Assembly (NCBI GenBank): GCA_024224415.1
Contig: JAAENK010000294.1
Coordinates: 1-39,153 of the forward strand
Length of the DNA stretch: 39,153 nucleotides
From: Gammaproteobacteria bacterium
GTDB taxonomy: Bacteria > Pseudomonadota > Gammaproteobacteria > GCA-001735895
Reading direction: 5' to 3'
Shown here: piece by piece, positions 36,647 to 39,153 of the stretch
Layout: each line of letters opens with the position of its first letter
Position numbering within the stretch: the stretch's first letter is position 1
Made by a program: the position numbers and the translations under genes
Notes under the pieces: generated by a model
Database searches by the model: none
Seen by the model: only the letters and a program-made list of their open reading frames with translations
What the model was told of the DNA's origin: nothing

Positions 36647-36724
36647 TTCAAGTTATCGCGCAAAGACATTTATTACGCCTACAATCAATGGTATGTTAAT
36701 TTTATAGTGGAATGGGGTAAACCA

Positions 36725-38086
36725 ATGAGTTATGACGAAAGCTTAAGTGTCGAACAGGAACTGGAACGTTTTATGAATGGATTGATTCGTAGAAATCCGG
36801 GCGAAGACGAATTCCATCAGGCGGTGCACGAAGTCGCAGCCACCATTATCCCTTTCATTCATGACAAACCACATTACCGCAAGGCTCGCATACTCGAGCG
36901 CATGACCGAACCAGACCGTGTCATCGCATTTCGCGTCTGCTGGGAAGATGATGAGGGCAATGTTCGCGTTAATCGCGGTTATCGCGTGCAATGTAATAAT
37001 GCCATCGGCCCTTACAAAGGTGGTTTACGCTTCCATCACAACGTTACACTGGGTACGCTAAAGTTTCTCTCTTTCGAACAGACTTTCAAAAATAGCCTCA
37101 CTGGCTTACCCATGGGTGGCGCCAAAGGCGGTTCGGACTTTAATCCCAAGGGTAAAACCGACAGCGAAGTAATGCGTTTCTGCCAGGCCTTCATGACCCA
37201 GCTTTCGCGCCATATCGGTGCTGATACCGACGTACCCGCCGGTGACATAGGTGTGGGTGCGCGTGAAATCGGTTACCTGTTCGGCCAGCACAAACGACTC
37301 ACCAACGAATTTACCGGCGTACTCACCGGCAAGGGCCTGGAATTCGGCGGCAGTCTGGTGCGTCAGGAAGCCACCGGCTACGGCGCCGTCTACTTCCTCG
37401 AAGACATGCTCAAGGAAAAGAATGACGATTTGAAAGGTAAAACCGCGGTGATTTCCGGCTCGGGCAATGTTGCGACATTCGCCGCCAAGAAACTCATGGC
37501 GCTGGGCGCGAAAGTCGTTACGTTGTCAGACTCTTCCGGCTATATCCATGACCCTGACGGGTTGAACGAGGAAAAGCTCAACTACGTTATCGACCTGAAA
37601 ACCGTGAAACGCGGTCGCATCTCCGAATACGCCGACAAATATAATGTCAAATTTTATGCCGATGAACGACCCTGGTCGGTACCCTGCGATGTTGCGATGC
37701 CCTGTGCTACTCAGAATGAATTGAATAAAGGCGAAGCTGAAATTCTGGTGAAAAATGGCTGCATAGCGGTCTCCGAAGGCGCCAACATGCCCACCGAAGA
37801 AGACGCTGTCGAAGTATTCCAGCAAGCCGGTGTCATGTACGCACCTAGCAAAGCCGCCAATGCCGGTGGTGTCGCCGTAAGTGGCCTGGAAATGAGTCAG
37901 AACAGCGCCAGAATCTCCTGGACCGAAGACGACTTAAACAAGCAGCTACGCGAAATTATGGCCCGAATCCACGACCGTTGCGTCGCCCAGGGTCGTGATG
38001 GTGACAAGATCGATTATGTCAGCGGTGCTAATATCGCCGGGTTTATTAAAGTGGCCGATGCAATGCTGGCATATGGGGTGGTTTGA
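36725..38086 (+). CDS. gdhA: NADP-specific glutamate dehydrogenase, 453 aa
   Basis: A hexameric GdhA of normal length (E. coli 447 aa) that makes glutamate from 2-oxoglutarate and ammonia. Signatures are GPYKGGLRFHHNVTLG, LPMGGAKGGSDFNPKG with the catalytic lysine, DVPAGDIGVGAREIGYLFG, VISGSGNVATFAAKKL and AMPCATQNELN. ATG 36725 (MSYDE) fits the family; a GTG at 36707 is a possible extension. TGGGGTA lies just upstream as ribosome site. It forms a single-gene unit between DUF2333 and the ccdAB pair. Confidence 0.97.
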   Translation: MSYDESLSVEQELERFMNGLIRRNPGEDEFHQAVHEVAATIIPFIHDKPHYRKARILERMTEPDRVIAFRVCWEDDEGNVRVNRGYRVQCNNAIGPYKGGLRFHHNVTLGTLKFLSFEQTFKNSLTGLPMGGAKGGSDFNPKGKTDSEVMRFCQAFMTQLSRHIGADTDVPAGDIGVGAREIGYLFGQHKRLTNEFTGVLTGKGLEFGGSLVRQEATGYGAVYFLEDMLKEKNDDLKGKTAVISGSGNVATFAAKKLMALGAKVVTLSDSSGYIHDPDGLNEEKLNYVIDLKTVKRGRISEYADKYNVKFYADERPWSVPCDVAMPCATQNELNKGEAEILVKNGCIAVSEGANMPTEEDAVEVFQQAGVMYAPSKAANAGGVAVSGLEMSQNSARISWTEDDLNKQLREIMARIHDRCVAQGRDGDKIDYVSGANIAGFIKVADAMLAYGVV

Positions 38087-38095
38087 GTATCTCGA

Positions 38096-38413
38096 TTAAA
38101 TACCGGTAACCAGAAAATCGATTGCGGCAACAATCTCATCTCTATTGAAAATCATCGATCCTTCATTTTTCCTGAGAAAGTTTGTTGAAACGCTGGTTAT
38201 CTGATGAGTTAGCAAAGCGAATGACCTGTTTTTTATTTCGAGCAGGGGACACAGATTTTGTGGGTAAGTTTTGCTGGATTTCGTAACAGGTGCTAGTGGT
38301 ATAACGACTCTGCTATTCAAGGTACCTAACAGGTCATTCTGGATATCAATAAAATAGGGATATGTTTTATTTGTATCCTTATCAGTATTCACATACAAAT
38401 CAAATTGTTGCAT
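38096..38413 (-). CDS. ccdB: CcdB-family gyrase-targeting toxin, 105 aa
   Basis: A CcdB/MazF-fold toxin. It begins MQQFDLYVN, continues with TYPYFIDIQNDLL and NSRVVIPLAPV, and ends AAIDFLVTGI, close to the F-plasmid CcdB layout (101 aa). F CcdB ends in WGI, where the tryptophan matters for gyrase poisoning; here the ending is TGI. Activity may be changed or the target shifted. ATG 38413 shares a base with the ccdA stop (TGATG), the usual antitoxin-toxin coupling. It lies 9 bp after gdhA, tail to tail. Confidence 0.93.
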   Translation of the reverse strand: MQQFDLYVNTDKDTNKTYPYFIDIQNDLLGTLNSRVVIPLAPVTKSSKTYPQNLCPLLEIKNRSFALLTHQITSVSTNFLRKNEGSMIFNRDEIVAAIDFLVTGI

Positions 38414-38658
38414 CAAAACACCCGGTGCTTATCCGCAAAAAGACCTTTCTTTTCCACTAATTGGTTACAGGATTGAATCGCTTCACTATTGTCTTTCAAC
38501 CATTGCTTACGCTTCTCCTTTCGCACTTTTTCTATCAGCGCCTGTTCCAGGGTTGCAGAGAGATTGATATTTAAAGCGCGAGCCTCTGTTAACAGGTCAA
38601 TACTAATGCTCAGGTTTGTAGGTTTTTTTACTTTACTACTATCGATCAAGGAGTGCAT
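38413..38658 (-). CDS. ccdA: CcdA-family antitoxin, 81 aa
   Basis: A small antitoxin with an N-terminal ribbon-helix-helix (KKPTNLSISIDLLTEARALNI, in the usual place) and a C-terminal toxin-binding tail (NQLVEKKGLFADKHRVF). The start may be ATG 38658 or the GTG at 38670; the ATG is nearer the family start. CcdA represses its operon, and a perfect palindrome just upstream (38678-38702) is the likely site. It sits 5' of ccdB as in other ccd operons. Confidence 0.92.
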   Translation of the reverse strand: MHSLIDSSKVKKPTNLSISIDLLTEARALNINLSATLEQALIEKVRKEKRKQWLKDNSEAIQSCNQLVEKKGLFADKHRVF

Positions 38659-38677
38659 TGGCTTACTCACTATAAAA

Positions 38678-38702
38678 TTATGCGCATTGCAGATGCGCAT
38701 AA
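38678..38702. promoter_or_regulatory. ccdAB operator: perfect palindrome TTATGCGCAT-N5-ATGCGCATAA
   Basis: A 25-bp perfect inverted repeat with 10-bp arms lies 20 bp upstream of the ccdA ATG and overlaps the probable promoter. Ribbon-helix-helix antitoxins bind such paired palindromes, so this is a strong candidate autoregulatory site. Confidence 0.65.
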
Positions 38703-38770
38703 TCATAGTTGATGACCTATGCCAAGTCAAACAATCCTACAATCGTAAACCACCGGGCAGCACCATGGAC

Positions 38771-38793
38771 GGAAGAGCGCAGCGTAATCCGCC
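38771..38793 (+). repeat. REP-like sequence, left copy
   Basis: The 23 bases here are the exact reverse complement of those at 39033-39055. They contain AGCGCAGCGTAATCCGCC, the complement of the widespread GGCGGATTACGCTGCGCT REP core. The pair flanks a RAYT transposase remnant. Confidence 0.85.
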
Positions 38794-38824
38794 GAAGGAA
38801 CGAACAGACTAATGGACTACTCAA

Positions 38825-39025
38825 ATGCCAAATTATCTAAGAAATCGTATACCCGTCGGAAGCTATTTCTTCACAGTCAATTTGCTGGAACGCTATCAAA
38901 ATACGTTTCTAATTGATGAAATTGATTTGCTCCATTCAAGTTTTCACACTTTGGTAAAGGCACAGGTTTATCCCCCGGATTGGACCGGATGTGCGACCAA
39001 ACTTGATATTGGCAAGCGTGAATGA
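38825..39025 (+). pseudogene. REP-associated tyrosine transposase (RAYT), internally deleted remnant
   Basis: The first about 42 codons match the start of RAYT (IS200-like Y1) transposases: MPNYLRNRIPVGSYFFTVNL, then LLERYQ and IDLLHSSF. The frame then jumps to a C-terminal RAYT motif, VYPPDWTG, and stops after 66 codons. Normal RAYTs have about 150-200 residues with an HxH motif and a catalytic tyrosine; both are missing. An internal deletion near codon 42 explains this. REP copies on both sides show it was a REP-RAYT unit that is now dead and could only move with help from an intact RAYT elsewhere. Confidence 0.85.
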
Positions 39026-39032
39026 GACATAC

Positions 39033-39055
39033 GGCGGATTACGCTGCGCTCTTCC
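39033..39055 (-). repeat. REP-like sequence, right copy
   Basis: GGCGGATTACGCTGCGCTCT plus TCC, the exact inverted copy of 38771-38793, lies 8 bp after the RAYT remnant. Nothing else was seen from 39056 to the window end. Confidence 0.85.
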
Positions 39056-39153
39056 GCCCTACGGCCCTGAAATTTTGTAACGCTATACCTGACATAAATT
39101 TTCACACAGTTAATACGCCCGCCAACACCGGGGAGCCGCGCCAGTGGTGATCC

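Follow-up and report, generated by a model that had tools for sequence, protein, structure and literature searches.

The DNA analysed here (the window) is a stretch of 39,153 nucleotides, contig JAAENK010000294.1 of a gammaproteobacterial MAG (3.07 Mb, 347 contigs, 87% complete, 4.2% contaminated; hereafter G000). Near its right end lies the remnant of a REP-associated tyrosine transposase (RAYT) gene flanked by REPs, from which about 333 internal bp are missing (Table 1). A CcdA/CcdB toxin-antitoxin pair on the minus strand (38096-38730) directly adjoins the remnant, and the gene tail to tail with this pair (36707-38086), read by eye, is presumably a glutamate dehydrogenase gene. On the other side the contig stops 91 bp beyond the element, within a repeat that we call attC-like, after the attC sites of integron cassettes, by its similarity to spaced repeats in relatives. 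It is 84-96% alike over 26-37 bp to three repeats (581 and 1124 bp spacing) in G012:C275 and 89% alike over 36 bp to one repeat in G011:C89, and it occurs a single time in G000 at up to three mismatches. The remnant, together with the ccdAB pair, is possibly situated at the margin of a cassette array. The best match to the left flank of the element was 65% over 304 bp, in G011 (8 of 35 genomes had any match, own included), and the right flank gave attC-like matches only (3 of 35 genomes, own included).

Table 1. Features at the locus, related relics in the source genome, and internally deleted copies with two ends. Positions are those of the window unless a genome or contig is named.
Feature	Position	Strand	Basis or remark
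CcdB-family gene (flank)	38096..38416	-	Pfam PF01845, 105.5 bits
CcdA-family gene (flank)	38413..38730	-	Pfam PF07362, 100.3 bits
Whole REP-RAYT-REP remnant, foot to foot, 298 bp	38765..39062	+	Ends placed from alignments with same-genus copies
Left REP; foot decayed from GTAG to ATGG, with a G-to-A change at the stem base	38765..38794	+	Relatives: CAGCACC-GTAGG-GCGGAAGAGCGCAGCGTAATCCGCC
Fused frame of 66 codons, RAYT N-terminus joined to C-terminus, without HuH or Tyr motif	38825..39025	+	Alignment to intact RAYT
N-terminal RAYT part (MPNYLRNR...IDLLH)	38825..38933	+	Alignment to intact RAYT
C-terminal RAYT part (SSFHTLVKAQVYPPDWTG...), gap of about 333 bp at 38933/38934	38934..39025	+	Jump alignment against two full-length copies
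Right REP, inverted orientation; CTAC foot intact at 39059-39062	39032..39062	-	Sequence comparison of arms
Start of putative attC-like repeat, cut by contig end (flank)	39115..39153	.	Similarity to repeats in relatives
A-type right REP relic	G000 C58:8776-8811		92% over 36 bp
A-type left end relic	G000 C321:4940-4986		79% over 47 bp
Weak B-type mini-unit, about 115 bp	G000, around C164:16976-17006		
The 12 deleted two-ended copies	Window; G025:C68, C390; G011:C38, C48, C127A, C35, C140, C85, C158, C136; G000:C164 (weak)		

The 23-mer GGAAGAGCGCAGCGTAATCCGCC occurs exactly at 38771-38793 on the plus strand and at 39033-39055 on the minus strand, and no match at up to three mismatches was found in 100 dinucleotide shuffles of the window. 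This bears out the exact inverted REP copies described in an earlier, sequence-only reading of this DNA. The arms lengthen to 38767-38794 and 39032-39059, with 27 of 28 positions identical and one mismatch. Element boundaries were placed at the GTAG and CTAC feet, at or within about 14 bp of which the homology of same-genus copies ends; measured from these feet the unit is 298 bp long, so that the short unit seen earlier is real and its extent of about 285 bp was an underestimate. The right foot of the window copy is intact and the left foot is lost, reading CAGCACC-ATGG-ACGG where its closest relatives (G025:C273 and C520) have CAGCACC-GTAGG-GCGG or similar. The whole strand of the element folds back through the two arms as one large hairpin (z -6.8). 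Single REP hairpins folded no better than shuffles (z -0.3, -0.3 and -0.9), with the exception of the single REP of a second subfamily, B, described below (z -2.2).

One open frame of 66 codons joining the two RAYT ends is present between the REPs, as had been proposed. Its 66 amino acids match residues 1-39 and 145-175 of an intact RAYT of the same genus, which supports the view of a RAYT reduced to its two ends. Jump alignment to each of two full-length copies puts the loss at 333 bp (111 codons), at 38933/38934; with one of these copies a break 5 bp earlier scores equally well. Across the junction the fused product reads ...NTFLIDEIDLLH|SSFHTLVKAQVYPPDWTG..., that is, IDLLH|SSFHTLVKAQVYPP. 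The break therefore lies upstream of the junction given before (IDLLHSSF followed by VYPPDWTG), and the C-terminal part starts SSFHTLVKAQ, not VYPPDWTG. Microhomology, raised earlier as a possible mark of the deletion, could not be resolved at the window junction, the two full-length copies used for comparison being only 72-79% alike over their aligned parts and the nearest fragments 82-88%; it amounts to about 1-5 nt at the junctions of several relatives.

The missing part is where the intact protein has its HuH (EHMH) and Tyr (YLHYNP) regions, named after the accessible text of PMC6006769, and the window copy has neither. With its catalytic motifs deleted, the window copy is judged to be a RAYT remnant and not a functional RAYT. 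The fused frame matched NCBIfam NF047646 (REP-associated tyrosine transposase) at positions 1-43 only, with 20.2 bits and thus below the cut-off of 80, as against 193 bits for the intact subfamily A protein of G011 and 206 bits for the intact B protein. The G011 protein in turn matched E. coli TnpA_REP (4ER8) over residues 4-175 of 177 (E=5e-50). On the strength of its alignment to both ends of an intact RAYT, and of the matches of the intact proteins, the window element is assigned to the RAYT family by descent. The ribosome-binding stretch of the window frame is degraded (AATGGA versus AAAGGA in relatives).

Within G000 the element is single-copy: neither a second copy of the remnant nor a full copy of its own RAYT subfamily (a cognate RAYT) was found in this 87% complete MAG. 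At up to three mismatches the 23-mer occurs twice in G000, both times within the window. The sole match to the Y1_Tnp family, a 229-aa RAYT-like gene at C50, is distant; considered as a full RAYT of the window's kind, it was rejected as a member of another RAYT-like group (57.6 bits versus a cut-off of 80). A single copy in a genome lacking any REP or RAYT family had been named beforehand as what would refute a MITE in the making. The copy is single, but looser matches revealed three further degraded REP relics, none of them intact, at C58, C321 and C164 (one weak). Plasmid and viral collections gave no match to the window element.

Relatives were sought in 57 genomes: the source genome itself, 30 of the same genus, five of the same family and 21 of the same class. 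DNA of the window element was matched in three of these, namely G000 and two same-genus MAGs, G011 (JAUVCH01, isolate CSMAG_266) and G025 (JAAEOZ01, isolate Cca_20), with 74-88% identity to the G025 copies across shared parts. The window-type REP at up to two mismatches gave 12 matches, only in the same three genomes, each of them terminating a RAYT sequence or a remnant of one. A RAYT protein search had matches in 27 of the 57 genomes, many distant; a class-wide search, listing best matches first, had a match in 156 of 369 genomes, and the counts of deleted copies given here are kept apart from that listing. A contig scan confirmed four loci of 80 candidate stretches.

REP-RAYT-REP units were found at several loci in two same-genus MAGs. 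Our catalogue comprises 36 places, 22 of subfamily A (the window type) and 14 of subfamily B (REP GTAGGATGCGGT...), and covers the A and B places of G000, G005, G011, G012, G015, G017, G024 and G025 only, leaving aside RAYTs of other genera, weak protein matches (about 35% identity or less) and same-genus genomes lacking DNA-level matches. G012:C353 and C287, which have the same flank, were counted once, as was G025:C503 with its two RAYT pieces. Three places are full length, G011:C32 and C47 (open) and G025:C793 (frameshifted); full-length A copies occur in G011 (open) and in G025 (frameshifted). Twelve, among them the window copy, have an internal deletion and retain both REPs at least in part; they range from about 461 down to 115 bp, although in G011:C38 the right REP is without its CTAC foot. 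Eleven have one or both ends lost or truncated, five are cut by a contig end and fall in no decidable class, and five are solo REPs, single ends or double-foot REPs; G024:C92, G015:C79, G005:C22, G017:C77 and G025:C350 were classed from alignment extents only. Deletion lengths measured against diverged parents may be off by small indels, as for C390 (334 versus one parent, 333 versus the other).

Several places in the catalogue have unusual structures. Double-foot REPs of 33 bp (GTAG...CTAC) occur in G012:C353 (L134:99-131) and G012:C143 (L133:504-536), and their shape is that expected from a central deletion between two inverted REPs. Double-foot REPs were already known, and such a deletion could produce them, according to the sections consulted of PMC6006769. 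At G011:C127:34000-34559 (L176:1-560) a B-type miniature with a truncated right REP stands immediately before a 217-bp A-type miniature with both REPs. Four B-type copies (L128, L129, L130 and L082) have at one end a REP with an expanded loop of about 20 extra bases, similar to ACCCCACTGGGCATAAAAGG; the other end is whole only in L130 (C136), and there it is without the expansion. At G025:C503:15800-16806 (L084) a RAYT 3' end and REP are immediately followed by the central part of a second RAYT, itself internally deleted (DLLRAVV|KRERG); this deletion is outside the 12 above, and we read the arrangement as a REP unit apparently joined to, or inserted in, another RAYT. Lastly, a 43-bp stretch, 95% alike and resembling the 3' end of a flanking gene, is found left of one A-type end and right of another (L089/L090; G025:C483 and C520), and is possibly a duplicated target region or a product of strain variants.

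The relatives also bear on movement of whole units. The full copy C47 and the deleted copy C140, both of G011, are 98.2% and 95.7% identical across their shared parts, and their alignment begins 4 bp outside the left GTAG and stops at the last base of the right CTAC; in other copy pairs homology ends no more than about 14 bp from the feet. No element occupies the C140 site in G012, G000, G003 and G008, which have 1, 21, 195 and 113 bases, respectively, between the two matched flanks. The site lies between a presumed transporter gene and a gene that, read by eye, we take to be lysS. In G011 a further 125 + 49 bp of unshared intergenic DNA flank the copy, and with relatives this diverged the exact target site was not readable from the empty locus. 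We infer that the genus-wide set of units spread as units and that most of them have decayed by internal deletion or end loss.

Whether deleted forms moved as well can be approached through their junctions. All seven A-type two-ended deletions, the window included, have different junctions, which is the pattern of separate decay, and no other copy with the window junction was found among the 57 genomes (own included) or in a 10-genome search. In subfamily B, C85 and C158 of G011 have a junction in common, which lies inside a 9/10 direct repeat, and a second one is common to C89 (right REP lost) and C136 of G011, with equal length and one differing base. Site patterns pair C85 with C158 (9 informative sites versus 1 and 1; 323 columns, unrooted), as would be expected if the deleted form was copied. 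Raw identity had placed C85 closer to C47 than to C158, which would suggest parallel deletions; the site patterns reverse this grouping, and either history is possible. C85 and C158 do, however, carry different bases at the junction position that distinguishes the two parent repeats. Over 74 positions C89 and C136 differ at 9, C89 and C47 at 3, and C136 and C47 at 9, so that the similarity of C89 to C136 does not exceed that of either copy to the full-length C47.

Right breakpoints of the B-type deletions of G011 gather at element positions of about 400 and 515, and the right breakpoint of C140, a copy that groups with C47, almost coincides with that of C85 and C158. Nine of 21 B-type pairs fell within 6 bp (expected 0.6), and with one copy per shared junction four of ten did (P 0.0004, assuming uniform breakpoints over 200-600 of the element, with mid-points of tie ranges and the weakly alignable G000:C164 left out); A-type right breakpoints showed no clustering (0 of 21 pairs). 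The clustering fits recurrent deletion at hotspots, which is able to give the same junction twice. The shared junctions may thus mean that gutted copies moved, or perhaps only that breakpoints have hotspots. Internal deletion leading to two-ended miniature units, as proposed for this locus, is supported for the family, in which 11 further such copies stand among the 36 places; for the window copy a MITE in the making is not supported.

Intact proteins of the genus resemble those of RAYT/REPtron systems (E. coli TnpA_REP, PDB 4ER8) in matching the family model and 4ER8, and inverted GTAG-tagged REPs flank the gene in same-genus units, as they do there. In the accessible parts of the literature, REPtrons generally have one full-length gene per REP type and seemingly do not move as whole units (PMC6006769), extant RAYTs are said to occur in single copy and, it seems, cannot mobilise themselves (PMC3116915), and in some marine gammaproteobacteria the REPs cluster near the rayt gene (PMC2817692). 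In contrast to RAYT/REPtron systems as described, one genome here has several copies of the unit at separate loci, and the window copy is without the catalytic part. The REPIN, a REP doublet thought to be mobilised by RAYTs in the same excerpts of PMC3116915, likewise has two inverted REPs around a spacer, but in the window element RAYT coding sequence forms the spacer and there is a single copy; a short doublet free of RAYT sequence and amplified genome-wide is not what lies here, the 23-mer occurring only at the two arms in G000 at that threshold. IS-derived bacterial MITEs share the size and the inverted ends and differ in that the window form lacks copy number, with one copy in G000 and none sharing its junction in the genomes searched, that no target duplication was seen and that no transposase source was found in G000.

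The closest published parallel that we found, in the available portions of PMC3119063, is the PATEs of Haloquadratum walsbyi, some of which arose from IS605-type transposons by repeat-mediated core deletion. There, too, an IS605-type core was deleted leaving palindromic ends, and decay and mobilisation are hard to separate. In the window copy the ends are kept and the core removed, with no repeat resolvable at the junction and short microhomology in several relatives. PATEs differ from it in having near-terminal palindromes and no inverted terminal repeats, as against GTAG REPs in inverted orientation, and in that some of them were amplified and the window form was not. The open-access literature on RAYT mobility and on internally deleted RAYTs, in the portions available, yielded no report of internally deleted RAYT copies.

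The history that we consider probable is that an IS200/IS605-like element of the RAYT family, with the structure REP-RAYT-REP, inserted beside the ccdAB pair and that illegitimate recombination subsequently removed about 333 bp from its transposase gene, leaving an immobile member of a genus-wide decaying set. As it can yield no transposase, the remnant would be unable to move on its own, and its movement in trans now seems unlikely, since no cognate RAYT was found and the left GTAG foot, which TnpA_REP enzymes read, is lost. Of three enzymes studied, the E. coli system tolerates no change in GTAG and two others tolerate some, in the results available from PMC8266576, so that damage to a single foot does not necessarily prevent movement in trans. 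The incomplete MAG of 347 contigs could also lack a second copy or a cognate RAYT, since assemblies of this kind readily lose near-identical repeats. The fusion has left the frame open, and the shared B-type junctions could mean that deleted forms are able to move.

These points bear on the proposal, made in the sequence-only reading, of a MITE in the making, that is, a non-autonomous MITE- or PATE-like element whose two REPs suffice for a cognate RAYT in trans and whose deleted forms spread. Both REPs being at least partly kept in a third of the places (12 of 36), their inverted orientation with the whole strand forming one hairpin, and the two junctions each found at two G011 loci would all fit such an element. 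The C85/C158 quartet is unrooted, however, and the pair differs at the telling junction base; hotspot deletion (four B-type pairs within 6 bp) can give one junction twice; and C136 stands no nearer to C89 than to C47. The window copy itself is single, with an unshared junction, a lost left foot and no full RAYT of its subfamily found in G000, and we regard its mobilisation as improbable. Retention of the fused frame as a small DNA-binding or regulatory peptide appears more doubtful by far: the frame is open across the junction and five of eight coding-to-coding deletions are in frame, but this share is within chance (P 0.09; four of the 12 two-ended copies were excluded, C158 for having two deletions and C35, C136 and G000:C164 for at least one breakpoint outside clear coding alignment or two deletions), the HuH and Tyr regions are absent, the ribosome-binding stretch is degraded, and a single sequence of the window form leaves no second for a selection test. 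An artefact of binning or assembly, either a chimaeric contig end or a collapsed repeat mistaken for a deletion, is hardly credible. The nearby contig end, 91 bp past the element in the attC-like repeat, and 4.2% contamination of the MAG would allow for it, but the element lies wholly inside the contig, its divergence (74-88% to G025 copies) speaks against collapse, and the same kind of deletion recurs in other MAGs. The window copy is thus most probably an ordinary RAYT unit that has decayed into an immobile relic.

Taken alone, the window carries a modest message, that of a decayed element marking past activity. The genus as a whole bears on the origin of REPINs, a widespread miniature mobile DNA, whose origin is so far a matter of proposal. 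We suggest, tentatively and as one possibility, that it holds the transition predicted by REPIN theory: RAYT units still spreading (several loci, up to 98% identity), together with core-deleted forms graded in size (from about 461 down to 115 bp, and on to 33-bp double-foot REPs), of which some were copied to new loci, with the window copy as a dead member. RAYT units present at several loci that lose their cores and keep both REPs are natural material for asking whether REP doublets originate when a unit that is still mobile loses its core. Since units are found here at several loci, and RAYTs have mostly been described as single-copy and immobile as units, the genus may preserve steps from RAYT unit towards REPIN, and the family offers a useful and uncommon series from the one to the REP doublet.
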